From assembly GCA_903945195.1 (NCBI GenBank), contig CAJAUT010000025.1:1-55460 (forward strand): a stretch of DNA of 55,460 bases, written 5' to 3'. The notes beneath the pieces are model-generated. The model was not told where the DNA came from and ran no database searches. It worked only from the letters and a program-made list of their open reading frames with translations. Source of the stretch: an uncultured bacterium. Its GTDB lineage: Bacteria > Patescibacteriota > Microgenomatia > UBA1400 > UBA12108. The translations under genes and the position numbers were made by a program. Position 1 is the stretch's first letter; each line of letters begins with the position of its first letter. Of this stretch, positions 181 through 55,460 are shown in pieces.

Positions 181-252
181 GGCCCTATCGTCCAGTGGTT
201 AGGACACTTGGTTTTCATCCAAGTAACTAGAGTTCGATTCTCTATAGGGTCA
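181..252 (+). tRNA. tRNA-Glu(TTC)
   Basis: Acceptor GGCCCTA/TAGGGTC, anticodon loop with TTC, T-loop GTTCGATTC. Confidence 0.93.
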
Positions 253-263
253 CAAATAATAAA

Positions 264-286
264 AACCACCGCAAGGTGGTCTTTTT
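264..286 (+). terminator. Rho-independent-type terminator after tRNA-Glu
   Basis: ACCACC-gcaa-GGTGGT followed by ctttttg. Confidence 0.75.
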
Positions 287-391
287 GTATCTATTAACTC
301 GTTAGAGTCGTACCTGCCCGAGCAGCGCTCGAGCATCCGACGGAGAGTGCTATGCACCCGCCTAGTGCAATTTCACGAAGTGAATTGCTGA

Positions 392-410
392 ATTCTCTAT
401 AGGGTCACAA
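392..410 (+). repeat. 19-bp direct repeat of the tRNA-Glu 3' end (att-like)
   Basis: ATTCTCTATAGGGTCACAA identical to 237-255. Confidence 0.85.
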
Positions 411-414
411 GTAA

Positions 415-2729: not shown

Positions 2730-4274
2730 ATGAAAACCAGTACAAAAATACTAGGTAAAGATCTAGAAAAAGAACTTCTCAAACAACTAGAAGGACTAGA
2801 TACTAGTACTATAGTTAGCAATGTCGGATCCATCTTGAGTGTTGGAGATGGCGTGGCTACTATATCTGGTTTATCCGGAGTGATGATGAACGAAATCATC
2901 ACTTTGCCTGGCGGCACAATGGGTCTTGCTCTCTCACTTCTTAAAGACACTGTCTCAGTGGTGCTACTTGGCGAATACACTCATCTCAAGCAAGGAGACA
3001 GAGCTACAGCTACAGGCAAAGTATTATCAGTTCCAGTAGGTCCAGCTTTCCAGGGTCGCGTAGTAAATGCACTCAACCAGCCAATCGATGGCAAACCAGC
3101 ACCAAAAGCAGAGATGATGTTGCCTGTTGAACGCATCGCCCAAGGTGTCATCACACGTCAACACGTCTCCCAGCCTGTCCAGACAGGTATCATCGCCATA
3201 GACGCCATGATTCCAGTCGGTCGTGGACAGCGCGAGCTCATCATAGGTGATCGTGGAATAGGTAAATCATCTATCGCCATCACCACCATCATGAATCAAA
3301 AAGATCAAAATCTAAAATGTATCTACGTCACTATCGGCCAGAAACGTTCCTTTGTGGCCCAACTAGAAGCCACCCTCGAAAAATACGGAGCTATGGAGTA
3401 CACGACGATCGTAGCTGCAACAGCTTCTGATCCAGCCGCTATGCAGTTCCTAGCTCCTTACTCTGCCACATGTCTAGGTGAATACTACGCCGAGCACGGC
3501 CAAGATGCCCTCATCATCTATGATGATCTATCTAAACACGCTTGGGCTTACCGCGAGATCTCACTTCTACTTCGTCGCCCCTCAGGCCGCGAAGCCTACC
3601 CAGGTGACGTCTTCTATCTACACTCACGTCTACTCGAGCGTTCATGCCGTCTCAATAAAGAATACGGTGGTGGCTCTTTGACAGCTTTACCTATCATCGA
3701 GACTCAAGCAGGTGATGTATCTGCCTATATCCCCACAAACGTCATCTCTATCACCGATGGTCAGATTTATCTAGAAACCGATCTCTTCAACTCTGGATTT
3801 AAACCAGCAATCAACTCAGGTCTTTCAGTCTCTCGTGTAGGAGGCGATGCTCAAATCAAAGCTATGAAAAAAGTCGCCGGACGTTTACGTCTAGATTTAG
3901 CTCAATATCGCGAGCTAGCAGCTTTTTCACAGTTTGCTTCGGATTTAGATGCCAAAACCAAAGCTCAACTCGACAAAGGCGCACGTGTCTCAGAGATCCT
4001 CAAGCAAGGTTGGGATGAGCCACTGGCCGTGGAAAAACAAGTAGTGCTCATCTGGGCAGTCACAGAAGGTCATGCCTCTACTATCGAACTCAAGCACATG
4101 AGTGCCTGGAAAAAGATTGTCCTTGAGTATCTGGATGGCAAAGCCGGTCAAAAACTCTGTGATCTACTCAAAAAAGAAGGCGCTTTGTCTGATGAAATCA
4201 TCAAACAAATGAAAAAAACTGTCGAAGAATGCCTTTTACTATCACAGCACTTAACCATCAAAACAGATAACTAA
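2730..4274 (+). CDS. atpA: F0F1 ATP synthase subunit alpha
   Basis: GDRGIGKSS Walker A, operon context. Confidence 0.97.
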
Positions 4275-13500: not shown

Positions 13501-14568
13501 ATGTCATCGATTCTAGACTCACGCCAAAAAATCAAAGCAATCGACCAGCACAACCTCTTAGGTAGTGTTGAAACCTTGCCAGATCAAATCCAAGATGCTT
13601 GGGAAGCTACCAAATCTCTAGTATTTCCAGATACTTTCCACAATGTCTCAAACATAATCGTTTCTGGTATGGGAGGCTCCTCACTTGGAGCACTAGTGAT
13701 CAAGCGATTATTCAAAGACGAGCTCCAGGTCCCTCTAGAGATCTATCCTCACTACCACTTGCCAGGTTACACCAGTAAAGACAGTCTAGTTATCCTCTCT
13801 AGCTACTCAGGTAGCACCGAAGAGACTCTAGCTGCCGCAGAGCATGCTGAGAAAGTCGGTGCCAAAATCGCCGTGATTACAGGCGGAGGCAAACTAGCAG
13901 AGCTCGCAAAGTCAAAAGGTTGGCCGATGTACGTGATAGACCCAAAATTCAATCCTTGTGGTCAGCCACGTATGGCTATCGGCTACGCAGTCTTTGGCAT
14001 GCTTTCCATGTTCGCCAAGATGGGTCTTATAAATATTGCAGAGTCCGACGTTCTTAAAATCGTAGACAATCTCAAAGAGCAAGTATCTCAATTATCCCCA
14101 GATGGCTCAAACGATCTAGCCAAACTTATGGCCTTTGCCTGTTACGACAAGCACGTAGTCTTTGTAGCAGCCGAGCATTTGATCGGCGCAGCTCATGTGA
14201 TGAACAATCAGTTCAACGAAAACGCCAAATCCCTTACTAGCGAGTGGCATCTACCAGAATTCAACCACCACTATATGGAAGCACTTAGCTACCCCAAACT
14301 AGCCAAAGAGACCACAGTATTCTTCTTCTTCAACTCAGCCCTTTATCATGAGCGCGTGCAAAAGAGAGTCTTGCTAACCAAGAGCCTAATAGAACAAAAA
14401 GGCTACGAGACACAGATGATTCTTGCAACAACCGAAACCAAGCTTGAGCAAGTCTTTGAAGTTATCCAAATTGCCGAGTTTGTAGCCGCCTATCTGCCTG
14501 TCCTTTATGGCATCGACGCTTCAGCCATCCCAAATGTCGACTGGTTCAAATCCGAGATGGCAAAGTAA
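13501..14568 (+). CDS. bifunctional phosphoglucose/phosphomannose isomerase (SIS family)
   Basis: GMGGSSLGA, SYSGSTEETLAA, EFNHHYMEAL. Confidence 0.88.
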   Translation: MSSILDSRQKIKAIDQHNLLGSVETLPDQIQDAWEATKSLVFPDTFHNVSNIIVSGMGGSSLGALVIKRLFKDELQVPLEIYPHYHLPGYTSKDSLVILSSYSGSTEETLAAAEHAEKVGAKIAVITGGGKLAELAKSKGWPMYVIDPKFNPCGQPRMAIGYAVFGMLSMFAKMGLINIAESDVLKIVDNLKEQVSQLSPDGSNDLAKLMAFACYDKHVVFVAAEHLIGAAHVMNNQFNENAKSLTSEWHLPEFNHHYMEALSYPKLAKETTVFFFFNSALYHERVQKRVLLTKSLIEQKGYETQMILATTETKLEQVFEVIQIAEFVAAYLPVLYGIDASAIPNVDWFKSEMAK

Positions 14569-14591
14569 CCTTCAAGGTGAGACCTCGTAGG
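14567..14591. repeat. RAYT-associated REP copy
   Basis: ACCTTCAAGGTGAGACCTCGTAGGC, at 3' end of RAYT gene. Confidence 0.7.
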
Positions 14592-14777
14592 CTACTCATC
14601 CAAATCGATCATCTCTTTATAAACTGTCGCGATATCACCAGATTCCTCGACGAACGACTGGTAGTTATTTTTTGGATTAGTTTTCGAAAAATATGACAAG
14701 ATATCATCAGTCTTGACCCAGCTCTGCCTAAACAGTCCCAGATAATTCCCATAGCTTGAATATTTATACTCTCTTAG

Positions 14778-14802
14778 ACCTTCAAGGTGTAACCTTGTAG
14801 GG
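14778..14802. repeat. REP copy inside the RAYT coding sequence
   Basis: ACCTTCAAGGTGTAACCTTGTAGGG, read antisense as YPTRLHLEGL. Confidence 0.75.
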
Positions 14803-15100
14803 TACGATGGCAAAGGATTTCTGTGAATATATTTAGTTATGTAAGTAAACTGCTCTTCACCAAGTATCTTCACGGTCTTGTATGTACTCTGGAATAACCC
14901 GCCAACTCTCTTATACTTCTTATTAAAATAAATGACATATTTTGTGAGCAGTGATTGCATCAGTCCAACCATTCCACGTTCTGTAAATTGCCGAATCAAC
15001 AAATGAAAGTGGTTCGGCATCAAACAATATGCAAGTAGATTTACCTCTTCAGCATAATTATTTAGAGCTCTTGACGGTGAAATAGTATGATTATTATCGT

Positions 15101-15123
15101 CCTTCAAGGTTACACCCTGTAGG
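15101..15123. repeat. Divergent REP copy inside the RAYT coding sequence
   Basis: CCTTCAAGGTTACACCCTGTAGG, translates as LQGVTLKD. Confidence 0.65.
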
Positions 15124-15293
15124 TCAGGTTTTACTAGATATGTTTTGAGTAATCCGAGAAATTTTACGTAGTCTTCATGATCGAGGAAAATATCACGCTT
15201 TTCCACGCCACGGTTATATATGTGATAAAACGCACCCGCCTCATATTCTTTAATCAAATTCTTTGCTGGCATATATAGTTTCAAGACCTTCAA

Positions 15294-15319
15294 ACCTTCA
15301 AGGTGTAACCTTGTAGGGG
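15294..15319. repeat. REP copy at the 5' side of the RAYT gene
   Basis: ACCTTCAAGGTGTAACCTTGTAGGGG. Confidence 0.75.
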
Positions 15320-15354
15320 TTTACTAGTTCCAATATACACCGTATATTAATTGT

Positions 15355-26436: not shown

Positions 26437-26475
26437 CATTCCAGCAACAAGTACCACTGAACTAAAAAACTGAGG

Positions 26476-26546
26476 AGCGGGTAACGGGAATCGGACCCGT
26501 ATCTGCTACTTGGCAAGCAGCCGTTCTACCACTGAACTATACCCGC
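26476..26546 (-). tRNA. tRNA-Gly(GCC)
   Basis: GCGGGTA/TACCCGC acceptor, anticodon loop TTGCCAA. Confidence 0.94.
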
Positions 26547-26588
26547 AATATTTACTTTTCAACTAACTATATCCTATCTCGGATACAA

Positions 26589-26666
26589 GTTTACCACTGG
26601 ACTCCCAGATTACTTCGTATCTGGAGTCAATTCTCTGGCTTCGCCAGAAGTGCAACTATACCCGCT
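26589..26666 (-). repeat. Partial tRNA-Gly 5' copy carrying a double-hairpin insertion
   Basis: ACCACTG | G-ACTCCCAGAT-tacttcgt-ATCTGGAGT-CAATTC-TCTGGC-ttc-GCCAGA-AGTGC | AACTATACCCGC. Confidence 0.8.
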
Positions 26667-26735: not shown

Positions 26736-26741
26736 GTTGTG

Positions 26742-26814
26742 TCGGGGTGCCCAGACTCGAACTGGGGACCTCCTCGTCCCAAACGAGGCGCTCTACCATC
26801 TAAGCCACACCCCG
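26742..26814 (-). tRNA. tRNA-Pro(TGG)
   Basis: CGGGGTG/CACCCCG acceptor, anticodon loop TTTGGGA. Confidence 0.94.
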
Positions 26815-26816
26815 TG

Positions 26817-26919
26817 GCTCTACCAAATCACTGCGGAGCAGTATCCTTGGATGGAAAGTTTACCCTGTTGCCTCGATATTTCATATCGAGGATAAACTTA
26901 CCATCTAAGCCACACCCCG
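26817..26919 (-). repeat. Partial tRNA-Pro 5' copy interrupted by a hairpin-rich insertion
   Basis: GCTCTACCA (26817-26825) ... CCTCGATAT-ttc-ATATCGAGG ... TACCATCTAAGCCACACCCCG (26899-26919, identical to 26794-26814). Confidence 0.75.
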
Positions 26920-26942
26920 GTAGATCAATGTATTATATCTTA

Positions 26943-26957
26943 TTTTGTGCCCCAAAG
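26943..26957 (-). repeat. Copy of the tRNA-Arg(TCT) 3' end (att-like)
   Basis: TTTTGTGCCCCAAAG versus tRNA 3' end TTTTGTGCCCCAAGG at 27798-27812. Confidence 0.75.
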
Positions 26958-27004
26958 ACATTTATGTTACAAACTTTAGTTTAGGAATTACAAGAGTGTA
27001 ATAT

Positions 27005-27769
27005 CTATACTCTTACTGAAACTAGTTCAGAGATCTTCTCAAATCCTGCTTCTATCGGGAGCACCAGATCAAACATCTCAGTAAAATCTGATGATAGTGT
27101 ATCTCCAAATCCTACATTAGTCACTGATTTAAAGTTAATACCTTCTGACATTTTTAGGTCGTCAATATTATCTCCAATCAAAATACACTCAGTATCGTCT
27201 TGATCGGGTGCTATAAAGTCATTCTTAATTAAAGTTTCTCCAATTTTATTCGCAGAGTGAATAATTGGTTGTTTTGTAGATGTATATTGCCCATTAGCTT
27301 CAAAATATAAAGTATTTGCACATATTCTGACATTAGTAAGGGAGATATCGTTCTTTTTTAAAATATATTCAATGGTGTTATATCCTATACCATTAGCGGA
27401 AAAAATAATTACTGAAATATCCGAATTTTTACACTGATCAAAAAATTCCTTAACTCCAGATCTCAGCTGTAACAGCGGAGAGTCACATGATTTCATGATC
27501 ATTGTTTCAGTAACTTTATATTTCTTCAGAACTGAATAAACTTCTAACCACCATTTGAGCATAAATCCTTGCTTCTGGACTAAGGTTAAATTTGTACTCT
27601 GTTCATATGGGTGATATTTGTTGAATAACTCCTCGTATTCGACTAGGCAGTTTTTATCAATTCCAGGTTCGCTCATAAGCACAGACATAAGTCCTGGCAC
27701 TTTTTGTCCATTAACAACTTTCTCTGTAAGAGTTCCATCAAAATCTGTTATTACCAGATGTTTATACAT
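27005..27769 (-). CDS. HAD-superfamily phosphatase, UMPH-1/pyrimidine 5'-nucleotidase-like (paralog 1)
   Basis: ITDFDGTLTEK, IIFSANGIGYNTIEYIL, IHSANKIGETL, LIGDNIDDLKM. Confidence 0.8.
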   Translation of the reverse strand: MYKHLVITDFDGTLTEKVVNGQKVPGLMSVLMSEPGIDKNCLVEYEELFNKYHPYEQSTNLTLVQKQGFMLKWWLEVYSVLKKYKVTETMIMKSCDSPLLQLRSGVKEFFDQCKNSDISVIIFSANGIGYNTIEYILKKNDISLTNVRICANTLYFEANGQYTSTKQPIIHSANKIGETLIKNDFIAPDQDDTECILIGDNIDDLKMSEGINFKSVTNVGFGDTLSSDFTEMFDLVLPIEAGFEKISELVSVRV

Positions 27770-27802
27770 TCTTTAGAGTTTTACAAAATACTATATATTT
27801 TG

Positions 27803-27876
<74 letters not shown>

Positions 27877-27881
27877 AATAA

Positions 27882-27968
27882 ATTGCTCTATCCAACTGGC
27901 ATCCCAGACTATTTCATGTCTGGATGCAATTCTCAAGTATTTCATACTTGAAGTGCAGCCATTGGAGC
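27882..27968 (-). repeat. Partial tRNA-Arg(TCT) 5' copy carrying the double-hairpin insertion
   Basis: TTGCTCTATCCAACTG | G-CATCCCAGAC-tatttcat-GTCTGGATG-CAATTC-TCAAGTAT-ttc-ATACTTGA-AGTGC | AGCCATTGGAGC. Confidence 0.8.
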
Positions 27969-32189: not shown

Positions 32190-32217
32190 ATCAGGGAGTG
32201 TGTTCGAACCTTGCTTG
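32190..32217. repeat. 28-bp boundary repeat type a, copy 1
   Basis: ATCAGGGAGTGTGTTCGAACCTTGCTTG identical to 36124-36151. Confidence 0.9.
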
Positions 32218-32335
32218 TAGAGAAAGAAATGTTGGTATATTAATTTGGATTATGTATATTTGGCATATTCCTTCTGCTTTAGTAGTGTTAACAATACTTT
32301 GAACATGTTCCAATTTGGAACAGATTGGTTGTCAT

Positions 32336-32950
32336 CTACCCTAGGGATTCATCAAGAGCTTGCTCAATTAGTTTTTCTAATTTCGAGTAGTCTCCTTCGT
32401 CTGCCGAGTACATGGCTTGCAGGTAGTTTTCTCTATCCTCCTTGGTATCTGCTTTGATTTCGATTGGAGGTAGACCTAACTGAAGAAGAATAGTTGTTGT
32501 GAGCATGCGTGCAAGTCGACCGTTGTAATCTTGAAATGGGTGGATCCAGACGAATTGATGTTGGAACCAAGCTAGTAACTCGATAATCTTTTCGACAGTA
32601 TCCCTGTCTAAGTGTTTTAGTCTTTCTGGTAAATCAGCGCAAAGATTTGCAATAAGGGTAGGAACCAGGTGAGGAAGGGGAGCTTCTTTTCCCGAATACT
32701 CTACTCTGATAGTGCGATATTTGCCTGCCCAATCAGGAAATATCCAAGCGAAGGCTAACTCGTGTATTCTGAGTATCAGTTGTGGAGTTAGCTGGTCTAG
32801 ATAATGAGTCGCTATAAACTCAAGGCCTTTCTTGGTGCCTTCTATCTCTAGTTGAAGAAGTTTCGTTCTGGGCATAATGCCGAATGCAGTTTGCTTGTAG
32901 CATGTAGCACCTTTAGGTTGGTAGACGATTTTTTCATTTAAATATTGCAT
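32336..32950 (-). CDS. Fic/DOC family protein
   Basis: WIHPFQDYNGRLARML (HPFxxGNGR-like, HPFQDYNGR). Confidence 0.92.
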   Translation of the reverse strand: MQYLNEKIVYQPKGATCYKQTAFGIMPRTKLLQLEIEGTKKGLEFIATHYLDQLTPQLILRIHELAFAWIFPDWAGKYRTIRVEYSGKEAPLPHLVPTLIANLCADLPERLKHLDRDTVEKIIELLAWFQHQFVWIHPFQDYNGRLARMLTTTILLQLGLPPIEIKADTKEDRENYLQAMYSADEGDYSKLEKLIEQALDESLG

Positions 32951-33144
32951 TGACCATTCGTCGAGTAATGCTCTCGCCTTCTAATTTGGTAGTGCGAAAA
33001 ATCATTTCAGGCATAAAACTTCGCAATAGGGAGCTTCCAGATTTTTTGTTAGATTTGGACTTACGATATTTGTCGTATTTAGCCTGAATTTTTGATTTCA
33101 TGGATAAATTGTAGCATGTGTGAGTAGCTGTGACTAGAAACCAG

Positions 33145-33193
33145 TATATCTAACTATATCATGGGGTCAACTAGTGGACTCATTCGTGAACAG
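33145..33193. repeat. Boundary repeat type b, copy 1
   Basis: TATATCTAACTATATCATGGGGTCAACTAGTGGACTCATTCGTGAACAG; two mismatches with 33605-33653. Confidence 0.9.
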
Positions 33194-33251
33194 GAAAGTA
33201 GAGATAACCTTTACTGTCAGAGAATTAGAGAGTCTCTTTATTAAAGCTAGG

Positions 33252-33563
33252 TTAGCTTCTAGCATTGCTACTTGCTAATTGGCTTTTGGCCTTTACTTGT
33301 TCACCGATTTCAAAGCATTGATTATCATACCTATTCATTTGTATTGCGTGATTAGATGCACCAGATAAACCCAATATAGTTCCAACAAAGACTAATCCTC
33401 CGACTACGTAATCCCATCCATTAATTCCTGGTGGCGTGTGATTAAAATATATTGCAGCTTCGGCAAGAATAACTGATAATCCAGTTAGATCTGCAACCGT
33501 CATGATTCCTTCGAACATTGATAGTCTAACTGTTTCGTCGAGCTGTTTCTGTAATTCACTCAT
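33252..33563 (-). CDS. small hypothetical membrane protein
   Basis: Two predicted TM segments; sits between type b repeats. Confidence 0.6.
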   Translation of the reverse strand: MSELQKQLDETVRLSMFEGIMTVADLTGLSVILAEAAIYFNHTPPGINGWDYVVGGLVFVGTILGLSGASNHAIQMNRYDNQCFEIGEQVKAKSQLASSNARS

Positions 33564-33604
33564 GGCGACAATTATACACTATAGGTCAATAGCGTCTTTA
33601 TAAA

Positions 33605-33653
33605 TATATCAAACTATATCATTGGGTCAACTAGTGGACTCATTCGTGAACAG
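33605..33653. repeat. Boundary repeat type b, copy 2
   Basis: TATATCAAACTATATCATTGGGTCAACTAGTGGACTCATTCGTGAACAG. Confidence 0.9.
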
Positions 33654-33752
33654 AAGAGTTGAGATAAACATATCGGTCCCAGAGATCAAATTATTATTTG
33701 ATGGTTTGAATATGCCCCACCCTGCAATGGCTGAATGGTAGAATATCTGGCT

Positions 33753-34043
33753 ATGGCAGAGAAAATCACTGGGCAAATATTTTTGTTAAATGAGGACGGC
33801 GACGCTGATCGACAAATTTTAGTCATGGCAGGTGCATCTGAAATTATCGGTGGGACATTTGGGTCCCTCGTGATTGATATGACCGCAAATCCACCTAAGG
33901 TGCAAGGTAAAGGCAACGTATGGGTCGAGGTAGGAGGTGCACTGATTCGGACTACACGAATGAACGAGGGAGATAATCTGGCAGTATTCACATCTGCTGA
34001 TGGGATAAGACGAAACCCAATCGGGTCAATTGTTTGTTGTTAA
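33753..34043 (+). CDS. hypothetical protein
   Basis: ORF MAEKITGQIFLLNEDGDADRQILV...; no family recognised. Confidence 0.55.
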   Translation: MAEKITGQIFLLNEDGDADRQILVMAGASEIIGGTFGSLVIDMTANPPKVQGKGNVWVEVGGALIRTTRMNEGDNLAVFTSADGIRRNPIGSIVCC

Positions 34044-34057
34044 AACTATTCCTATAG

Positions 34058-34366
34058 TTACTTCGCTTCCCCTGTAAATTTACCCGCTTCGACAAACTTA
34101 GTTTTGTAGATGTCTTGCTCATCTTTCGTAAAAACGGTTAGTACCTCGACTTGTAGATGAGTCTTGCCTTCTTTTTGAGTGAGAGATAGAACTCGACAGT
34201 AGCCAAGGAAGTTCCAGTCTGTATGAAAATAGAGCAAAGCAATTCTCATGGGTAGGACCCGCTCTCGCTCCAGTACCAAATCAACTATTAGACCATGCTT
34301 GAGTTTTGATAGATCAAAATCTCCTGGGAACCTTACAATTGAGTTGATTTCTGTCATTGCGCCCAT
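34058..34366 (-). CDS. hypothetical protein
   Basis: 102-aa ORF directly downstream of the frameshifted gene, same strand. Confidence 0.6.
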   Translation of the reverse strand: MGAMTEINSIVRFPGDFDLSKLKHGLIVDLVLERERVLPMRIALLYFHTDWNFLGYCRVLSLTQKEGKTHLQVEVLTVFTKDEQDIYKTKFVEAGKFTGEAK

Positions 34367-34374
34367 ATGACTCC

Positions 34375-35402
34375 TTATTTATATTTTTCAAATACCAGGG
34401 GTTCGTGATAGAGGTCTATCGATTCAAAGTTCTTGCCTAGTCCAAGCGAGACTGGCAATGTGTCATGTTTGTATGATTTTGCTTTTTCGTATTGTGATGG
34501 CGTAAGGATGCGTGGGATATACGAGTCCTTGTGGTCCTGTAGCACGCCTGTACCGACCCAATACTTGCCATTGAGGTATAGGTGCTCCCGATGCCGATAA
34601 AAATAGGCGAGGCCTTAGTGAAGAGTAGGACCGTATCAGGAGATTTGACTAGATCCATGACTTTGGGTAAATTGCTGGTGGCGGCTTGTTCATAAAGTGC
34701 GGCGAGGTGGATTTTCTCTTGCTTATCTTCCTCTGATAGTTTGGTCCAGTCTTCTTTGCCATTCCATTTGATATTGAGAGTAGCCATTCGCTCAAAGTCT
34801 TTTACTTTAGCATCTGGCCAAGCCTCTATGTCTTGCTCGGCTTTGACCTTACCCTCTTCGAGAGCTTTGAAGTATTCGTCACGAGTGTATATGTCGGCAT
34901 CTCGCAGGATACTCAGTTTTATGTTCTTAGGTAGATGTTCTTGAAATTTGGCTTGTAGATGAGCAAAGCTATCCATGTAGATTTTGATTTCCTCGGTTGT
35001 GAGATTGTCGTGAGTCTCCATGAGTAGTGTGTGGCAGTAGTAAGTTAGTTCGACGCCAGGCTTGTAGACGGTCGCTAAAGGGGCAATGTAGTTGAGAACA
35101 TAGGCGAGATTGAAGAACTCTGCCCAATCCGATTCAGGTGAGGTAGGAAAGCGCCAAAGCTTGTATCCGCCTTGGAAAAATATCACTTTTATTGGCTCAT
35201 TTTTCTCAATTTTGATGTCGATGGCTTTTTGAGTTCGTTCGATACAGCCAGGGTCCAGTTTCCATTTACGGAACTTCTTGGACATGAGTTTCGCCATGGC
35301 AAACTTTGAAACGTCTTGATTGAGGAGTTTTTGATCGTCAGAAGTGAGCTGGTAGTTGCCAGCGTTCTTGAGTTGGTTATCTAGATAGCCTTGTACGTCC
35401 AT
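34375..35402 (-). pseudogene. hypothetical protein gene with an apparent frameshift
   Basis: ORF reads MDVQGYLDNQL... to about LLFTKASPIF; the next frame continues YRHREHLYLNGKYWVGTGVLQDHKDSYIPRILTPSQYEKAKSYKHDTLPVSLGLGKNFESIDLYHEPLVFEKYK*; A5/T5 homopolymer at 34599-34603. Confidence 0.75.
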
Positions 35403-35405
35403 AGA

Positions 35406-35420
35406 GATGTGGGAAGGAAT
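35406..35420 (-). pseudogene. 3' part of interrupted tRNA-Cys-like gene
   Basis: Minus-strand ATTCCTTCCCACATC, pairs with GATGTGG at the 36044 end. Confidence 0.65.
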
Positions 35421-35986
35421 CAAGCACCCCGCGGCAGAGACCGCGGGGTATGGTGGGATGGGAGCATGACCCTAGGTGAGTAATCTGAGTTGGACCTCTT
35501 CTTTTGTTTTTCCCTGGTTGGCTATGTATTTCTCTACTACCTTCCAGTTTCCCCGCTCGCTGACCGTAGCCATGTAGAATCCGTCACTCCAGAATTCCCC
35601 ACCCCAGAGTTCTTTCTTTAGTTGAGGAAATCGGATAAATAGTTGTTTAGTCGTAATGCTTTTGAAAATTCGCACAATGGCACTCCCACCATACTTGGGA
35701 AGGAATGAAACGAGCAGGTGAACATGGTTTAGGTCGTACCCGATGCGTTCGAAGTCAATATCGTATCGCTGTCCGATTTCCTCAGCTATGGCAGAGATGG
35801 CTCGCGGGATCTCCTCGGTCAAGAGAGCTTTTCTGTATTTAACGGGAAAAACAATATGGTAGTGAGCGTCATAGACATTGTGAAAAGTACGGTTGAGGGT
35901 CATGCTCCTATTTTATACCGCCTCTTCCTGATCTACTACCCGCCACAATAAGGAGCTCGCGGCAGAGCCGACGAGGTAATAGTTAA
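35421..35986 (-). mobile_element. IS200/IS605-family insertion sequence with TnpA only
   Basis: End hairpins CCCCGCGG-cagaga-CCGCGGGG (35427-35448) and CTCGCGGC-aga-GCCGACGAG (35956-35975) around a Y1 transposase. Confidence 0.8.
35472..35903 (-). CDS. tnpA: IS200/IS605 family transposase TnpA
   Basis: YHIVFPVKYRKALL, LNHVHLLVSF (HUH), VVEKYIANQG. Confidence 0.95.
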   Translation of the reverse strand: MTLNRTFHNVYDAHYHIVFPVKYRKALLTEEIPRAISAIAEEIGQRYDIDFERIGYDLNHVHLLVSFLPKYGGSAIVRIFKSITTKQLFIRFPQLKKELWGGEFWSDGFYMATVSERGNWKVVEKYIANQGKTKEEVQLRLLT

Positions 35987-36044
35987 TTGAACCTCCGTCT
36001 TCTGATCTTGCGGACCAGACGCCTTAACACTTGGCCACCACATC
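35987..36044 (-). pseudogene. 5' part of interrupted tRNA-Cys-like gene (anticodon GCA)
   Basis: Minus-strand GATGTGGTGGCCAAGTGTTAAGGCGTCTGGTCCGCAAGATCAGAAGACGGAGGTTCAA. Confidence 0.7.
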
Positions 36045-36123
36045 AAATTTAGAATAATTGTACTACACTGATATTTGTTTAGATTTCAGATATTTTGAGC
36101 TACTTTGATATACTTGGGGTGGG

Positions 36124-36151
36124 ATCAGGGAGTGTGTTCGAACCTTGCTTG
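36124..36151. repeat. 28-bp boundary repeat type a, copy 2
   Basis: Identical to 32190-32217. Confidence 0.9.
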
Positions 36152-36170
36152 CCGAGTATAATCCTGCATT

Positions 36171-36509
36171 ATGAATAATAGTGAACTTTGTAAATCTTGT
36201 GAAAACGTCGACGGATGTAGTCAATATTTGAGACCGACAAACATTGGTGGTGGGTGTCCTTTGACTACAATTTCCTGTCGACACTATACTTGTCCCTTAG
36301 GGATGCGAGAGGCTCGCAATGCTGTTAAATCACATTTGTCAAAGAACTGGAAAATGTTGCATCCTGTAGCTTTTGGTTCATCGCATAAGCCGATAGGGAC
36401 TAGATTGGTAGATGTGGATGGCGATATTCTGTCAGAGCAAGATGGAAAAATGTATCCAACAGGTCAGTTCGTACCAGTTTCAATGATAATGTTGATGATC
36501 GAACAATAA
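36171..36509 (+). CDS. hypothetical Cys-rich protein
   Basis: CKSCENVDGCSQYLRPTNIGGGCPLTTISCRHYTC; sits between type a and type b repeats. Confidence 0.6.
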   Translation: MNNSELCKSCENVDGCSQYLRPTNIGGGCPLTTISCRHYTCPLGMREARNAVKSHLSKNWKMLHPVAFGSSHKPIGTRLVDVDGDILSEQDGKMYPTGQFVPVSMIMLMIEQ

Positions 36510-36552
36510 TTACCAATTAGAATTTATGATCTACTTTGATGTACTTGGGGTT

Positions 36553-36577
36553 AACTAGTGGACTCATTCGTGAACAG
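36553..36577. repeat. Boundary repeat type b, copy 3
   Basis: AACTAGTGGACTCATTCGTGAACAG; similarity with copy 2 continues into GTTGAGATAA-CATATCG. Confidence 0.88.
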
Positions 36578-36776
36578 GAAGGTTGAGATAAGCATATCGA
36601 TCATAATCATAAAACGGGTGCTAGATAATTTTGGAATCGTACTTGTAAAAGATAAGGAAGTTGTTTCGTTGTTTAAAGCGATCTGAGCAGGAAGTGTGTA
36701 ATGATGTTCAAATAATCATCCAAAAATTTTCACAAATACTACGAATTATAGTACCTTAAACTGCTGAATACTGTAT

Positions 36777-37301
36777 TTATTGTTCAAGATGGTGTAAGTA
36801 GTCATTATGAAAAGCATAGACAGTTTGATCAGTAGAAGGGTTATACCCTAAACATGCATATTCAAATTCTTCTGGGAAAGTAATCCAATTCAATGGGTAT
36901 TTAGAAAGCATTAGTTTGTGTCTTTCGTAGAACTCAGTTCTCGGGTTAACGATTGCGATACCATTCGTTATACCTGTTCCTGTATTGAAACCATGTAATG
37001 GTGAATTACGAAGAGTACCATCCCTATCTAGTGCCTCAGAAGGTAAAAGATGGAAAAGTTTAACACCTTCGGTAGAGTCTTTAACTAAGCCTATCGAACA
37101 GTTATAGGCTTCATCGGTGTAGTGAGATGGCGATCGACTAGTCAACCAATCTGTGACATTCCCAGGTTTTCCCCTGAAGTCTACATATCTTGCTTCATTT
37201 TCTCTAACAAAAATATTAAAATCATTTCGAGATACTCTCTCTATTTTAATATTAGGCGTGAGTATTTCTGGCTTTAAACTAACGAATCTATCAAAAATCA
37301 T
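36777..37301 (-). CDS. hypothetical protein
   Basis: 174-aa ORF between type b repeat and tRNA-His. Confidence 0.6.
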   Translation of the reverse strand: MIFDRFVSLKPEILTPNIKIERVSRNDFNIFVRENEARYVDFRGKPGNVTDWLTSRSPSHYTDEAYNCSIGLVKDSTEGVKLFHLLPSEALDRDGTLRNSPLHGFNTGTGITNGIAIVNPRTEFYERHKLMLSKYPLNWITFPEEFEYACLGYNPSTDQTVYAFHNDYLHHLEQ

Positions 37302-37438
37302 ATATTTATATTAAATTGTCTCTTCAAATTTCAAGTTAATTATAGAACAATAAATCTATAAAAAACAAAGATTGACAAATTCAGAAGCTAATTAGAATAT
37401 CGTTTGCATGATAGTTTGATATATTAAGATATACTTGG

Positions 37439-37513
37439 GGTGGACGAGCGGACTCGAACCGCCGACATCCTCCTTCACAGGGAGGCACTCTAACCAACTG
37501 AGCTACGTCCACC
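37439..37513 (-). tRNA. tRNA-His(GTG)
   Basis: GTGGACG/CGTCCAC acceptor with G-1:C73, loop CTGTGAA. Confidence 0.94.
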
Positions 37514-49411: not shown

Positions 49412-49483
49412 GCGCCTATCGTCCAAAGGATAGGACTCCGGTCTTCGGAACCGTTAATGGGGGTTCGATTCCCTCTAGGCGCA
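49412..49483 (+). tRNA. tRNA-Arg(TCG)
   Basis: GCGCCTA/TAGGCGC acceptor, loop CTTCGGA, T-loop GTTCGATTC. Confidence 0.93.
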
Positions 49484-49486
49484 CAA

Positions 49487-50281
49487 ATGCATCATAATAT
49501 GTCTAATAACATCAAAAACAAACACAGCAAAATAGTTATTACCGATTTTGATGGCACGCTTAGCGAAAAATTGGTAAACGGACAAAAAGTACCTGGATTA
49601 ATCTCTGTACTCATGAGCGAACCCGGAATTGATAAAAACTGCCTAGTCGAGTACGAGGAGTTATTCAACAAATATCACCCATATGAGCAAGATATAAATT
49701 TAACCCTAGATCAGAAACAAGGGTTTATGCTCAAATGGTGGGTAGAGGTGTATTCAGTTCTGAAGAAGTATAAAGTCACAGAAAAAATGATCATGGCCTC
49801 ATGTGACTCACCACTGGTACAACTAAGATCTGGTGTTAAACAATTTTTTGATTACTGTAATAATTTGTGCATTCCAATAATAATTTTCTCAGCGAATGGA
49901 ATTGGATATAACACTATTGAATATATTTTAAAAAAGAACGATATCTCCCTTACCAATGTCAGAATATGTGCAAATATTTTACATTTTGATGCTAATGGAC
50001 AATACGCATCTACAAAACTACCAATTATTCACTCTGCGAATAAAATTGGAGAAACTCTAATTAAGAATGACTTTGTAGCGCCAGATCAAGACCAGACTGA
50101 TTGCGTCTTGATTGGAGATAATATTGACGACCTAAAAATGTCAGAAGGTATTAATTTTAATAATGTGATTAGAGTTGGATTTGGAGACCATGCGTCGGTA
50201 GAATTCACTCAAAACTTTGATTATGTCCTACCTATAGATGCAGGATTCGAGGAAATAACTGGTAAACTTAATAGTCAATAA
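49487..50281 (+). CDS. HAD-superfamily phosphatase, UMPH-1-like (paralog 2)
   Basis: Near-identical to the 27005-27769 product, including NGIGYNTIEYILKKNDISLTNVRICAN; ORF start 49457 lies within the tRNA and is rejected. Confidence 0.8.
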   Translation: MHHNMSNNIKNKHSKIVITDFDGTLSEKLVNGQKVPGLISVLMSEPGIDKNCLVEYEELFNKYHPYEQDINLTLDQKQGFMLKWWVEVYSVLKKYKVTEKMIMASCDSPLVQLRSGVKQFFDYCNNLCIPIIIFSANGIGYNTIEYILKKNDISLTNVRICANILHFDANGQYASTKLPIIHSANKIGETLIKNDFVAPDQDQTDCVLIGDNIDDLKMSEGINFNNVIRVGFGDHASVEFTQNFDYVLPIDAGFEEITGKLNSQ

Positions 50282-50338
50282 ATGCTACAAAGTCTTTTAG
50301 GACTTGAATAGACTCGGCAAAAGTCTCAAGCAAAAATA

Positions 50339-50353
50339 CTTTGGGGCACAAAA
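50339..50353 (+). repeat. Copy of the tRNA-Arg(TCT) 3' end downstream of HAD paralog 2
   Basis: CTTTGGGGCACAAAA, identical to the reverse complement of 26943-26957. Confidence 0.75.
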
Positions 50354-50364
50354 AAGTGAGAATC

Positions 50365-50433
50365 TGCACATCAAGCGCGTAGCGCCTGAGAAATGTATCC
50401 AGGCACAAAGTAGCCTGGGATGCCCTCTAGGCG
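50365..50433 (+). repeat. Double-hairpin element followed by a tRNA-Arg(TCG) 3'-end copy
   Basis: TGCACATCAAGCGC-gta-GCGCCTGA-GAAATG-TATCCAGGC-acaaagta-GCCTGGGATGC, then CCCTCTAGGCG (50423-50433) as in the tRNA. Confidence 0.78.
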
Positions 50434-50538
50434 AAAACTATATCTAAATAAGTATTATTTTAAAGAGATATTCTCTAGTTGACAAATTGTAGGCAAAACA
50501 GTTGACAGTTTATAGAGTTATCCGCTAAACTAATAATA

Positions 50539-51792
50539 ATGAAATACGTCACGCGCAATATAGAAAAACAACTGAAAGATGCTCTAGATTCTTCTGGTGC
50601 AGTTTTTTTACGAGGGATCAAAGCGTGTGGAAAAACCGAGACTGCTTTGCGTTTTGCAAAAAGTAGCATCAATCTTCAGGAGAACTCTAGGAACAAATTG
50701 CTAGCAGAAGTTTCCCCCAGCGATGCATTAGATGGTCCTACTCCTCGCTTGGTGGATGAATGGCAAGAGGTTCCAAATATCTGGAATAATATCAAAGTCG
50801 AGATTGACAAGCGCAAAATCTCCAAACAATTTATCTTGGCTGGTTCTAGTACTTTACAAGATGACATAAAAATTCATTCTGGAGCAGGTCGCATTATCAC
50901 TCTTGATATGAGTACGCTCTCATGGCAAGAACTTGGGTATTCTAATGGATCTGTAAGTCTAGCTACATTGCTAGACAGCAATACTATCAAGTCAACACAA
51001 AACCAAACTACATTAAAATCAATTTTGCGACGGTTGGTGGTGGGTGGTTGGCCGTCACTCATTGGTAAATCTGAGTCAAGTGCGATCACCATAAATCGCT
51101 CGTACATTGACTTACTATTAAGCGACGATATTAGTAGAGTCTCTGGAGTAAAACGCAACCGTCAAAAAGCTGAAAAAATACTGCAATCACTAGCGCGTAA
51201 CATTGCAACTACCGTAGATATCTCAACCATTGCCACAGACACAGTTGCAAATACCGACTCCAATGTTTCGCGTCAAGCCACTTATGATTATCTAGATGAC
51301 TTCAACAGGTTATTGATCCTCGTCAATCAACCAGCATGGAATGTACATATCCGTTCATCAGCAAGTTTACGTGTGACCCCAAAACGTCACTTGGCCGATC
51401 CTTCTTTATCATGTGCTACATTAGGACTTTCCTCAGACTCTTTGTTTCACGATCTAAACTTTGCCGGATTTTTGTTTGAATCACAAGTATTCCACGATCT
51501 ATCCGTTTATGCTTCTCAAAATGATTCGAGTTTATCCTACTATCGTGACTCATTCGGCAACGAAGTCGACATTATTGTAGAGAAAAGAGATGGATCATGG
51601 GCGGCCTTCGAAGTAAAATTAGGTGATGTAGAACTAGATTTGGCATCAAAAAAACTTCTAAATTTTGCAAATAACATAGACACCAAAAAATCTAAAGCTC
51701 CAAGTTCGCTCAACATTGTTACAGGGACTGGATTAGCATATACGCGCGCTGATGGTGTAAACGTACTAACACTAAGCGTTTTAGGAGCATAA
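50539..51792 (+). CDS. AAA ATPase with DUF4143
   Basis: GAVFLRGIKACGKTETALRFA, PRLVDEWQEVPNIWN, C-terminal nuclease-like fold FGNEVDIIVEKRDGSWAAFEVKLG. Confidence 0.93.
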   Translation: MKYVTRNIEKQLKDALDSSGAVFLRGIKACGKTETALRFAKSSINLQENSRNKLLAEVSPSDALDGPTPRLVDEWQEVPNIWNNIKVEIDKRKISKQFILAGSSTLQDDIKIHSGAGRIITLDMSTLSWQELGYSNGSVSLATLLDSNTIKSTQNQTTLKSILRRLVVGGWPSLIGKSESSAITINRSYIDLLLSDDISRVSGVKRNRQKAEKILQSLARNIATTVDISTIATDTVANTDSNVSRQATYDYLDDFNRLLILVNQPAWNVHIRSSASLRVTPKRHLADPSLSCATLGLSSDSLFHDLNFAGFLFESQVFHDLSVYASQNDSSLSYYRDSFGNEVDIIVEKRDGSWAAFEVKLGDVELDLASKKLLNFANNIDTKKSKAPSSLNIVTGTGLAYTRADGVNVLTLSVLGA

Positions 51793-51795
51793 AAA

Positions 51796-51836
51796 GGGGT
51801 TCTATCCGCAGTCCATCTGCATGTACAAACTATATC
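51796..51836 (+). repeat. Degenerate tRNA 3'-end-like boundary, copy 1
   Basis: GGGGTTCTATCCGCAGTCCATCTGCATGTACAAACTATATC. Confidence 0.6.
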
Positions 51837-51885
51837 TAAAGAAATATTAGTTTAGACAAACTTTATCACTTCATTTGTATGTCGA

Positions 51886-52941
51886 TTATACTTTTCGATA
51901 CCTAGTTGTAGCGCCTTGACCAATCCGCTCAATCATTTTTAAAGCCATTAATTTATTAATCACTTGATTAATCGTTGGTCTAGGGACACCTGTAACATTT
52001 GAAATTTCTCTGGGTGTTGTTTCTGGCACCTTCACAAGGTATTGCCACACAAGCAACTGTTTAGGTGAGAGAACCGTTTCAATATTCGTTGCTGTGAGAA
52101 GCTGTACTGCCATTTGAGACTGTTTTAGTAAGATATCTAAAAAGAAATTAAGCCACGGCGATATGTCAGGCTTCTTTGTGCGTAATGTTTTTTGGCTTTT
52201 CCTAAGTGCCAAATAGTAGTCTGGTTTATTATCCTCAATAAGTTTCTCATGAGAAACGTAAGGCATATAGGCGTAGCTTTGTTGGAGAAGTAATAAATTG
52301 GATATAATTCTGGACAATCGGCCGTTACCATCTTCAAATGGATGGATATTTAAAAACTCTACAAGAAAGTTCGCGATTATTAAGAGTGGATGGTAGGTAT
52401 TTTTTTGTAAAGCAGTCTTTGTCCAATCAATAAGCTCAAGCATTTCTTTGGGTGTTAACCAAGCTTTGGTTGTCTCAAAAAGAACGCCAACAGATTCTCC
52501 AACTTCATTAATCATCTCGACGGCATTTTCTTTTTTCTTGTAATCACCTCGGTGAAAAATATCCTTTTCAACATACTTGAGTAGTTCTTTATGAAAATGC
52601 TTGACCAAATTTTCGTTAAAGATGAGTGTCTCCCATGAATTAAAGACATTTTGCAAAAGTTCGTAGTATCCTTGAGCCTCCTGCGCGTCCCGATTACTAA
52701 ATTTCTGGATCGAGATACCCCGAAGCATTTTTTCAATATCTTCATCAGACAACTTTGACCCCTCAATTCGAGTCGAGGCACCAGTAGATATAACCAGCAC
52801 TGATTTTTTAAGTCGCCCTAATATTTGAGGACTTAGCTTCGTACTTCCCTCCCATTTACCCTTAATTGCATCGATCTGGGTGATCTTGATCCAGATGTCT
52901 TGAGATATGCTTTGTAAACGCAAATCGAATCTATTATTCAT
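51886..52941 (-). CDS. Fic family protein with C-terminal winged helix
   Basis: NIHPFEDGNGRLSRII; LSPKQLLVWQYLVKVPETTPREISNVTGVPRPTINQVINKL. Confidence 0.95.
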   Translation of the reverse strand: MNNRFDLRLQSISQDIWIKITQIDAIKGKWEGSTKLSPQILGRLKKSVLVISTGASTRIEGSKLSDEDIEKMLRGISIQKFSNRDAQEAQGYYELLQNVFNSWETLIFNENLVKHFHKELLKYVEKDIFHRGDYKKKENAVEMINEVGESVGVLFETTKAWLTPKEMLELIDWTKTALQKNTYHPLLIIANFLVEFLNIHPFEDGNGRLSRIISNLLLLQQSYAYMPYVSHEKLIEDNKPDYYLALRKSQKTLRTKKPDISPWLNFFLDILLKQSQMAVQLLTATNIETVLSPKQLLVWQYLVKVPETTPREISNVTGVPRPTINQVINKLMALKMIERIGQGATTRYRKV

Positions 52942-53140
52942 ATATATAAGATTATATAAGGTTATATAAGATCTGTCAATAATCTCATAGTGCGTAATAA
53001 TTATGAAAAGATTTTACCTCATCCAAGGGGTAGGGGTCATAGTTTTATCTTCTCCGTATCTAGATATATTACTTTACCATCCACTTCTATAAACCCAAGG
53101 AGTCTCAGGATATAATAGGTTTTGATAACACTCGAGGAAA

Positions 53141-53170
53141 GGGGTTCCATCCCCAGCCCACCTGGTGCAC
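53141..53170 (+). repeat. Degenerate tRNA 3'-end-like boundary, copy 2
   Basis: GGGGTTCCATCCCCAGCCCACCTGGTGCAC, clearly related to 51796. Confidence 0.6.
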
Positions 53171-53236
53171 AAGCGATTTGTACCATTTAAACCTATTTCA
53201 ATAAGAAAACGGATCTAGACTTGATAATATACAAAC

Positions 53237-54025
53237 ATGCCCTATAATATACATATGAGTGAAATTTTACACAAGTTTCGATCAGAAGTATTTAAACATG
53301 CTGCCATAGTTACAGTAATGGCACTTGCGGCATTTTGGCTCGCGAGTTGTAGTCCGTTTCCAGGTGAAAAACCCTCAGTTGGAGATGGAGGTGGTACGCC
53401 AACATTGCCATTGCCAAATACTGAAACTCCCACCGCAACCGCAACGTCTACCGAAACCCCTACTGCAACGATCACCCCTACTCCCACTGAGATTCCATTC
53501 TCTCCAGAAACATGGGCGGGGACGGACCAAGTGAGATTGGATTTTTTACAAAATTTGAAGGATTGGGGGGTGACTGATTTTACATGCGGAGATGATGGGA
53601 TATGTAGAGACGCTGAGAGAAAAATATTATTTGATAATGGTAGATATGATATTTTCAACGTTTTATCGATTTTTGAAAAATCTACAATTTTGAAATCGGC
53701 AAACCTAAAACCAAAAACTGGTAACGTTCCCATTAATTCACTTTATGCTAGTAACGAAGTACTCCAACATTATTTGCCAATTTTTGCTTTAACCAGAGAC
53801 GAATATACTAAGAAAAATGATGGGGTAGATGTTTTTACTGATCCTGGATTGGGATTCTTTTTGATCAACTTTGATACCTTGTCTTGGGTTATTGTGGCTG
53901 GGGAAGAAATGGAAAATCCAAAATCTCAAAAATATTTAGTTGGGGAAACTGTTGACAAGCCCTTCATACTTCCTCTAATGCCAGTTGAGTTTACTGATTT
54001 AGAATATTTGCGATACCTGAAATAA
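53237..54025 (+). CDS. secreted lipoprotein with Thr/Pro-rich linker
   Basis: Lipobox LASC; TETPTATATSTETPTATITPTPTEIP. Confidence 0.7.
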   Translation: MPYNIHMSEILHKFRSEVFKHAAIVTVMALAAFWLASCSPFPGEKPSVGDGGGTPTLPLPNTETPTATATSTETPTATITPTPTEIPFSPETWAGTDQVRLDFLQNLKDWGVTDFTCGDDGICRDAERKILFDNGRYDIFNVLSIFEKSTILKSANLKPKTGNVPINSLYASNEVLQHYLPIFALTRDEYTKKNDGVDVFTDPGLGFFLINFDTLSWVIVAGEEMENPKSQKYLVGETVDKPFILPLMPVEFTDLEYLRYLK

Positions 54026-54078
54026 TGATTATTGAGAATCTTGTTGTAGTTTTGAAGCTATTCTGATTAAATGGAGTA

Positions 54079-54606
54079 ATGAAGAGTTGGATATTGGGGA
54101 CTGTAATTGTAGTTGTTGTTTTTTGTATTGGCGGGATGTTATTCCTGTATAATTTTGCTGGATTGAGGCAATATATGCGAGCAAATAATTTAATGAATAA
54201 TATGCCCCCCGATGAAAAGAATAAAGCACAGTCAGAATTTTTTGGAACTAATCAAAGAGGGGCGCAAAACGGGATTTTGGCAGGATCATGGATGGGTAGG
54301 ATATGGATGTGGGGAGTGAGTGGTCTTCAATCGTTTACGATTGATGAATACTCAGTATTTTCCTTTTTTGACGGATGTAGTGATGATAAGATGGAGCGAC
54401 TAAATAAGGGTGAGAGAGATGTAATAACTAGAGCGGTGTATTCTGACATCGACGAATGGAGAGGGAAGTCAAAGATTGGAGACTATGTAGTGGTCTATGT
54501 AACTAAAGTTGAGAATGGGGGGAAAGTAGGTAATCTTAGAGAAATATATGATTATAATTTTTGGTTATTCTTAAGTAATGGAATAGATAACGAATGCGCA
54601 AAATAA
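54079..54606 (+). CDS. hypothetical membrane-anchored protein
   Basis: N-terminal TM (ILGTVIVVVVFCIGGMLFLYNFA). Confidence 0.6.
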   Translation: MKSWILGTVIVVVVFCIGGMLFLYNFAGLRQYMRANNLMNNMPPDEKNKAQSEFFGTNQRGAQNGILAGSWMGRIWMWGVSGLQSFTIDEYSVFSFFDGCSDDKMERLNKGERDVITRAVYSDIDEWRGKSKIGDYVVVYVTKVENGGKVGNLREIYDYNFWLFLSNGIDNECAK

Positions 54607-55460
54607 TAGGACTAGGTATATTTTTTGTGATGATTGGGCTATTTTTGGGAGCTAGCGTTGAAAGTGTAAAAGCATGCGTTAATTGGTGTGTCCCAGTGTG
54701 TATGAGTGGTTTTGTAAATCCTGATGGATCATGTAGACGATATGAAACTGCATGTTGTGATTCTAACCCCATAATAGGATCTATTCAATGTAATGCTGGG
54801 TATTATGCCTGTAATTTAGAATACTTTAGTGGGCAGAAATGCTGCAAGCTCGGGACGACGACTCCTACTTGCTTTGTCCCAGGCACGATCGTCAGTAGCC
54901 CTGGTGGTGACAAAAAGATAGAAGATATAAAGGTAGGGGATGAGGTGAGTTCTTTTGCAAATGACAAAATAGTAAACTCCAGCGTATCCCAGATCTATAA
55001 AGCACAGAGGGATTTTTATTTTGACCTTAAAGCGGGTGATTACGAAGTCAAGGCCACGGCAGAGCACCCATTTTATATAGGGAGTGGCAAGTTTGAGCAG
55101 GTACAAAATCTAAAAGTAGGAGACAGGGTATATGTCGAGGAAAATGGGGGACTGGTAGCTAAACAGGTCACCTCAAACACCAGGATCGATGAAAAAACCG
55201 ATGTGTACAACATGAGTGTCGACAATACGAACACTTATTTTGCAAATGGGTTTGGAGTGCACAACAAGGGGGGAGACCGGTGTAGAAATGGCACAACATT
55301 TGGACCAGATTGTCCTCCGGGTACTGAGATAGATCCAAATTCTGGAGTATATATAGATCCTAGAGCTGGTTTGGGCAACTTTGTTTGCTATGATCCTGGT
55401 ACTTCACAAGCAGATACAAGTGTTTGCGCTGACTGGTATTACCCGCCATCTGTGTGTGGC
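54594..55460 (+). CDS. secreted Cys-rich protein with Hint/intein-like domain (partial, runs off the window)
   Basis: Frame open to the window end; signal peptide; TCFVPGTIVSSPGGDKKIEDIKVGDEV ... HPFY ... VYNMSVDNTNTYFANGFGVHNKG. Confidence 0.85.
   Translation, partial: MRKIIGLGIFFVMIGLFLGASVESVKACVNWCVPVCMSGFVNPDGSCRRYETACCDSNPIIGSIQCNAGYYACNLEYFSGQKCCKLGTTTPTCFVPGTIVSSPGGDKKIEDIKVGDEVSSFANDKIVNSSVSQIYKAQRDFYFDLKAGDYEVKATAEHPFYIGSGKFEQVQNLKVGDRVYVEENGGLVAKQVTSNTRIDEKTDVYNMSVDNTNTYFANGFGVHNKGGDRCRNGTTFGPDCPPGTEIDPNSGVYIDPRAGLGNFVCYDPGTSQADTSVCADWYYPPSVCG

Follow-up and report, generated by a model that had tools for sequence, protein, structure and literature searches.

A composite array of single-gene modules behind tRNA-Arg(TCG) in a Patescibacteriota genome

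What separates the genes that follow the tRNA-Arg(TCG) gene of an uncultured bacterium, and how did these genes come to lie there? The locus occupies the right end of a stretch of 55,460 nucleotides, referred to here as the window (contig CAJAUT010000025.1, assembly GCA_903945195.1, an uncultured bacterium of the Patescibacteriota, order UBA1400). The original prediction held that genes of the HAD, AAA/DUF4143 and Fic families stand one after the other behind this tRNA, each closed by a sequence derived from it, and that the whole repeats the design of a first array found behind tRNA-His in the same window. Little is known of how bacteria of the candidate phyla radiation (CPR), whose genomes are tiny, acquire and exchange single genes, including candidate defence genes; if one-gene modules are stacked at tRNA genes, this would show where to search for them. 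The genome to which the window belongs (G000) is a fragmented assembly, and the analysis bears on the stretches around its tRNA genes and around sequence matches.

Inserted DNA behind tRNA-Arg(TCG)

The anchor of the array is an intact tRNA-Arg(TCG) gene (49412-49484, plus strand), detected by ARAGORN and scored 59.6 bits by Rfam, with uvrC preceding it. The three genes are present as named. A HAD gene of the UMPH-1 (HAD-IE) type (49487-50281, plus strand) starts directly behind the 3' end of the tRNA. It is followed by a gene for a DUF4143 protein with an AAA_14 ATPase domain (50539-51792, plus strand) and, in the opposite orientation, by a Fic gene with a C-terminal winged helix-turn-helix domain (51886-52941, minus strand). 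Further inserted genes, encoding a lipoprotein-like protein, a protein of unknown type and a PT-HINT protein, extend from 53237 to 55460 (plus strand). The contig stops at 55460, before the end of the array, a point that had gone unremarked.

Two relatives of the same family, G001 and G003, have a cytidylate-kinase-like gene within about 35-115 bp downstream of tRNA-Arg(TCG), which in them too comes after uvrC; in a third, G004, about 2.2 kb lie between the tRNA and the kinase-like gene. In the window genome, this gene is on a different contig, with another gene upstream of it. Since the kinase-like gene follows the tRNA closely in G001 and G003 and lies elsewhere in G000, the simplest reading is that the window consists of inserted DNA from the end of tRNA-Arg(TCG) onwards. 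Part of the cargo resembles single-gene defence functions: the DUF4143 protein matches the phage-defence candidate PDC-S01, and the Fic protein matches SoFic and PDC-S04. The array is likely to benefit its host as a turnover site for single-gene functions, candidate defence genes among them.

A family of tRNA-like boundaries

The 3' end of tRNA-Arg(TCG) was used as query in a gapped search of both strands over 6 kb, with 100 dinucleotide shuffles of each stretch as control. The three best matches are those at 50419, 53141 and 51796, with scores of 26, 23 and 21, the next one scoring 19. The first, GATGCCCTCTAGGCG (50419-50433, plus strand), agrees with the tRNA at 14 of 15 positions (E = 0.04 within the 6 kb) and includes the copy of the tRNA 3' end that had been placed at 50423-50433. 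None of the 100 shuffles reached the score of its own stretch at any of the three boundaries, the shuffle maxima coming within one point of the real score for 51796 and 53141.

The relationship among the boundaries themselves is much closer. The sequences starting at 51793 and 53138 (boundaries 51793-51826 and 53138-53173, both on the plus strand) align with each other over 46 nucleotides with a score of 46, shuffled sequences in the tRNA comparison reaching about 12-13. The flanks that follow the first two boundaries (AAACTATATCTAAATAAGTATTA..., 50435-50475 and 51827-51867, plus strand) align over 41 nucleotides, again with a score of 46 against the same shuffled values, as expected from the claim that a common flank recurs at 50436 and 51828. 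These two mutual alignments indicate that the boundaries belong to one family. The description of 51796 and 53141 as T-arm-like was therefore right in that both are among the three best tRNA-3'-end matches and are copies of each other, but their likeness to the tRNA is only moderate. As in tRNA-docked islands, a displaced tRNA 3' end is present at the far boundary. The boundaries stand between genes and are concentrated at tRNAs; they are mutually homologous, and other tRNAs of the genome have them too, as does the related genome G005 (see below). This argues against their being unrelated promoters or terminators. The module ends share no strong attC-like fold, and the R' and R'' consensus boxes of integrons, judged by eye, were not seen in them.

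Repeats phased at 10 bp, of the type TANATC-AAAG-TAGATC, immediately follow tRNA 3' ends and module boundaries, in both orientations (window 33145-33683, 36096-36543 and 37418-37433; locus L038 at 14509, 13986 and 16147; locus L045 at 16235 and 16895). They are a possible protein-binding site.

A module shared by two tRNA-Arg genes

A second HAD gene, absent from the original prediction, lies on the minus strand directly behind tRNA-Arg(TCT) (gene 27005-27769; tRNA 27802-27876). The two HAD proteins are 79% identical, and their genes have long identical stretches in common. The second module ends in a copy of the 3' end of tRNA-Arg(TCT) (26941-26958, minus strand). The module behind tRNA-Arg(TCG) ends in the same sequence, TTTGGGGCACAAAA (50340-50353, plus strand), which had likewise been missed and which is the 3' end of tRNA-Arg(TCT), not that of the tRNA that now precedes it. 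The array is thus composite. Since both modules carry the Arg(TCT) end, the HAD module seems to have been transferred from tRNA-Arg(TCT) to tRNA-Arg(TCG). A scan of the named genomes with the HAD protein found no relative. HAD relatives in G025 and G036 were considered as modules and rejected: they lie upstream of tRNA-Leu beside dnaB and look vertically inherited.

Between the Arg(TCT) end and the DUF4143 gene lies another element that had escaped notice, a double hairpin which we call A (50356-50424, plus strand). It is joined to the displaced piece of tRNA-Arg(TCG), and copies of it are found in displaced pieces of tRNA-Arg(TCT), -Gly, -Thr and -Tyr and in the Gln array of the window genome, as well as in several places in G005; it is the element present in the tRNA-linked pseudo-tRNAs of both genomes. 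Over 11 copies, compensatory changes occur in 11 of the 18 base pairs, from which the structure appears to be under selection.

Copies of tRNA 5' ends interrupted by a hairpin are also found about 110 nucleotides upstream of intact tRNA genes (Gly, Pro, Arg, Thr and Leu), in the window at 26474-26665, 26741-26919 and 27802-27967. Others lie upstream of tRNA-Leu(gag) (3412-3493, minus strand) in L045, upstream of 1422 in L046 and upstream of 1562 in L042. They occur in tandem, about three times at tRNA-Leu(gag) and twice at tRNA-Leu(tag).

Recurrence at other tRNA genes

The boundary sequences are short; recurrence was judged by BLAST E-values together with swap controls. Displaced 3'-end copies (E<1e-3, at most 1.5 kb downstream) accompany 10 of the 79 tRNA genes of G000 and G005 taken together, against 0-1 in the controls. 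Besides tRNA-Arg(TCG), arrays are found behind tRNA-His, -Asp, -Gln and -Glu(ctc), and their gene content differs from one to the other. Each of several arrays has repeated module ends of its own: in the His array (32190-37512, minus strand) end R1 is present three times and R2 twice, the Asp array has its end two to three times and the Gln array three times. The ends of the Gln array are found again in a Gln module of G005, whose cargo is a SET-domain gene. Tandem single-gene modules with common repeated ends, here putative recombination sites, are what is seen in integron cassettes. A Fic gene is present in both arrays of the window, as stated at the outset, that of the His array at 32336-32950. 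The claim that the two arrays have the same design holds for the tRNA-derived boundaries between genes, but the first module of the Arg(TCG) array, with its Arg(TCT) end, departs from it.

Some further observations may be added. An IS200-like transposase gene lies inside the His array (35472-35903). tRNA-Glu(TTC) is followed at about 155 bp by a near-perfect 23-nucleotide copy of its own 3' end, the interval being free of genes (window 181-414), and at tRNA-Thr(TGT) in L043 (1900-2152) a 40-nucleotide exact copy is found at +124.

How the modules may have moved

We propose that the locus is a composite, tRNA-anchored array of single-gene islets, for which the 3' half of tRNA-Arg(TCG) would have served as the point of entry, one islet at a time. 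With every new module an intact tRNA would be rebuilt beside it, while the 3' end of the preceding tRNA copy, displaced and decaying, would remain as the boundary. Since no mobility gene is found among the array genes, the mobilising enzyme would act in trans. The HAD module, whose geometry of gene, hairpin and tRNA fragment is that of the tRNA-nested GIY-YIG units of the same genomes, would most likely have originated by break-induced repair at a tRNA, in a homing reaction like that of phage SegB, with the HAD gene as a passenger. The DUF4143 and Fic modules have a boundary sequence and a flank that are repeated, and rather resemble units mobilised by a site-specific recombinase with tRNA ends as its sites, the best candidate being a XerA/IntI-like enzyme encoded beside trmD. 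We give this explanation as a whole a probability of about 0.5. Its array and insertion part is very probable, while the order of events is what we infer from the arrangement, and the two drivers are named tentatively, each of them being rather improbable in its specific form.

Several points weigh against this explanation. Boundaries 51796 and 53141, taken singly, resemble tRNA-Arg only moderately, and the Rfam tRNA model at a relaxed threshold matches none of the boundaries. The array genes are in mixed orientation, and the closest relatives compared belong to other genera. GIY-YIG and recombinase genes, like any other mobility gene, are absent from among the array genes, and no direct link was found between either kind of enzyme and the boundaries. 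Finally, in G002, whose assembly is fragmented, the recombinase is present but hardly any arrays were seen, and the correlation between recombinase and arrays is based on a handful of genomes.

The XerA/IntI-like tyrosine recombinase gene lies directly upstream of trmD in G000, G002, G004 and G005 (loci L002, L337, L338 and L341). Among the 20 genomes of the order that were searched, it is restricted to the family of the window and to this one conserved place. The XerA-like model scores best on it, and the nearest solved structures are those of XerA and IntI4; the matches to IntI models are split into two stretches and fall short of the cut-off, and the insert specific to IntI is missing. G003, which does not have the enzyme, has displaced tRNA ends only, with no genes between them. 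One may ask whether this recombinase moved all the modules in trans, as in a sedentary integron docked at a tRNA 3' end. Single-gene modules with array-specific repeated ends, the distribution of the enzyme and its structural relatives all speak for such a scheme; the lack of a convincing attC-like fold and of core boxes recognisable by eye, the missing IntI insert, the few genomes behind the correlation and what seems to be a promoter of its own in the DUF4143 module speak against it, and we regard it as unlikely.

GIY-YIG endonucleases have a very strong association with tRNA genes. Our sample comprised 90 single-domain loci from 53 genomes of the order, one locus being counted twice; 44 of the 90 have a tRNA at no more than 150 bp, and 43 of the 44 share its strand. 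At 24 of 42 tRNA-adjacent loci a fragment of the same tRNA is found beyond the GIY-YIG open reading frame, against 0-2 in controls. Among 65 relatives found by sequence pattern in named genomes, 51 lie at most 200 bp from a tRNA (in one case a tmRNA), all on the same strand, and tRNA fragments accompany 26 loci, against 0-3 in controls. Such tRNA-nested genes occur in CPR, Verrucomicrobia, Lentisphaerae, Elusimicrobia and other groups (loci L130-L132 in the window genome, L163-L219 and L220-L284). In the window genome, three of the four single-domain GIY-YIG genes abut tRNAs. A hairpin of about 35 nucleotides, B (CTGCCCGCAATGCTACGCATAGCGTTGCAGGCGGG), is conserved across phyla within the displaced tRNA pieces beside these genes (L130, L200, L222, L223, L230, L238, L246, L270 and others). 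At L249, the GIY-YIG gene lies 169 bp behind the tmRNA gene.

Could homing at the T-loop or D-arm of the tRNA have brought in all the modules and not the HAD module alone, the other genes following by collaborative homing and the endonuclease lying elsewhere or being lost? SegB offers a precedent: this phage GIY-YIG enzyme cuts within tRNA genes at RAWTSGAAC, the complement of which is a T-loop motif (PMC13096335). Hairpin A ties the array to the hairpin-interrupted pseudo-tRNAs, and hairpin B is found in many GIY-YIG units across phyla. At the Arg(TCG) array, however, no GIY-YIG gene lies between the intact tRNA and a fragment of the same tRNA, as it does at other loci: the HAD module resembles such a unit in its geometry, but its fragment comes from the other tRNA-Arg and its gene encodes a HAD phosphatase. 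Moreover, no endonuclease is found among the array genes, and repeated module ends of 30-60 nucleotides with a flank were not noticed in GIY-YIG units. For the array as a whole, homing is somewhat less likely still than the recombinase.

The modules might also be satellites or deletion remnants of elements that carry a large serine recombinase and dock in tRNA 3' ends. In the order, 23 of the 30 genes examined for this enzyme overlap with or lie next to a tRNA encoded on the other strand, one of them at tRNA-Arg(TCG) in G024, and all three in the window genome lie at tRNAs, one heading the Gln array. But the elements examined have no convincing displaced tRNA ends comparable to our boundary copies, and the array contains no remnant of a serine-recombinase gene, which makes this origin improbable. 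(At these loci, L291-L320, the recombinase reading frame includes the tRNA 3' end or adjoins it.) Just as improbable is an origin that needs no dedicated enzyme, by natural transformation followed by homologous recombination and duplication among the repetitive tRNA loci. In its favour, tRNA and module ends offer short homology and the HAD paralogues have long identical stretches; but matches of 14-20 nucleotides are short for RecA-dependent recombination, and the precise single-gene modularity and the restriction to tRNAs are left unexplained.

Relation to known systems

Like the GIY-YIG units described here, SegB of phages T4 and T6 is encoded by a free-standing gene near tRNA genes; it cuts inside them and brings about tandem amplification of tRNA segments (PMC13096335). 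Unlike it, our units are chromosomal, occur in CPR and other phyla, and are inserted into the tRNA, with the intact tRNA rebuilt and the fragment displaced; the Arg(TCG) array differs further in having no GIY-YIG gene of its own. The pattern suggests what a widespread and so far unexplained gene family may do and is directly testable at the bench. We found no published description of GIY-YIG genes beside tRNA genes in CPR in a partial coverage of the literature, so that an earlier report may exist. CPR are known to harbour rRNA insertion sequences with homing endonucleases, which also target RNA genes (PMC11270868); these, however, are intron-like, lie in rRNA and mostly encode LAGLIDADG enzymes, and the word tRNA does not appear in the main text of that paper.

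With sedentary chromosomal integrons, the array shares tandem single-gene modules, array-specific repeated ends and a recombinase of the XerA/IntI kind encoded elsewhere. It differs from them in being docked at a tRNA, in its mixed orientation, in having neither a convincing attC-like fold nor an adjacent integrase, and in occurring several times per genome. Genomic islands docked at tRNAs and tycheposons likewise insert at tRNA 3' ends and leave displaced tRNA ends behind, but the modules here hold about one gene each, have no integrase and are stacked at many different tRNAs. No match to the Phage_integrase or Recombinase profiles, as an integrase inside the element would give, was found on the window contig, and the array genes include none of the genes that mark a tycheposon, namely a tRNA-targeting tyrosine recombinase, a replication gene or a packaging gene. 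The literature covered, which was partial, contained no description of tRNA cassettes with tyrosine recombinases or of integrons in Patescibacteria. A bolder proposal, and one that we consider doubtful, is a new gene-capture system in which stacked single-gene cassettes would dock at tRNA 3' ends, mobilised in trans by a sedentary XerA-like recombinase and/or by GIY-YIG enzymes that cut a tRNA and, by inserting, restore it.

Elsewhere in the window, a Y1-transposase gene that resembles RAYT is flanked by palindromic repeats, ACCTTCAAGGTGTAACCTTGTAGG (14568-15321).

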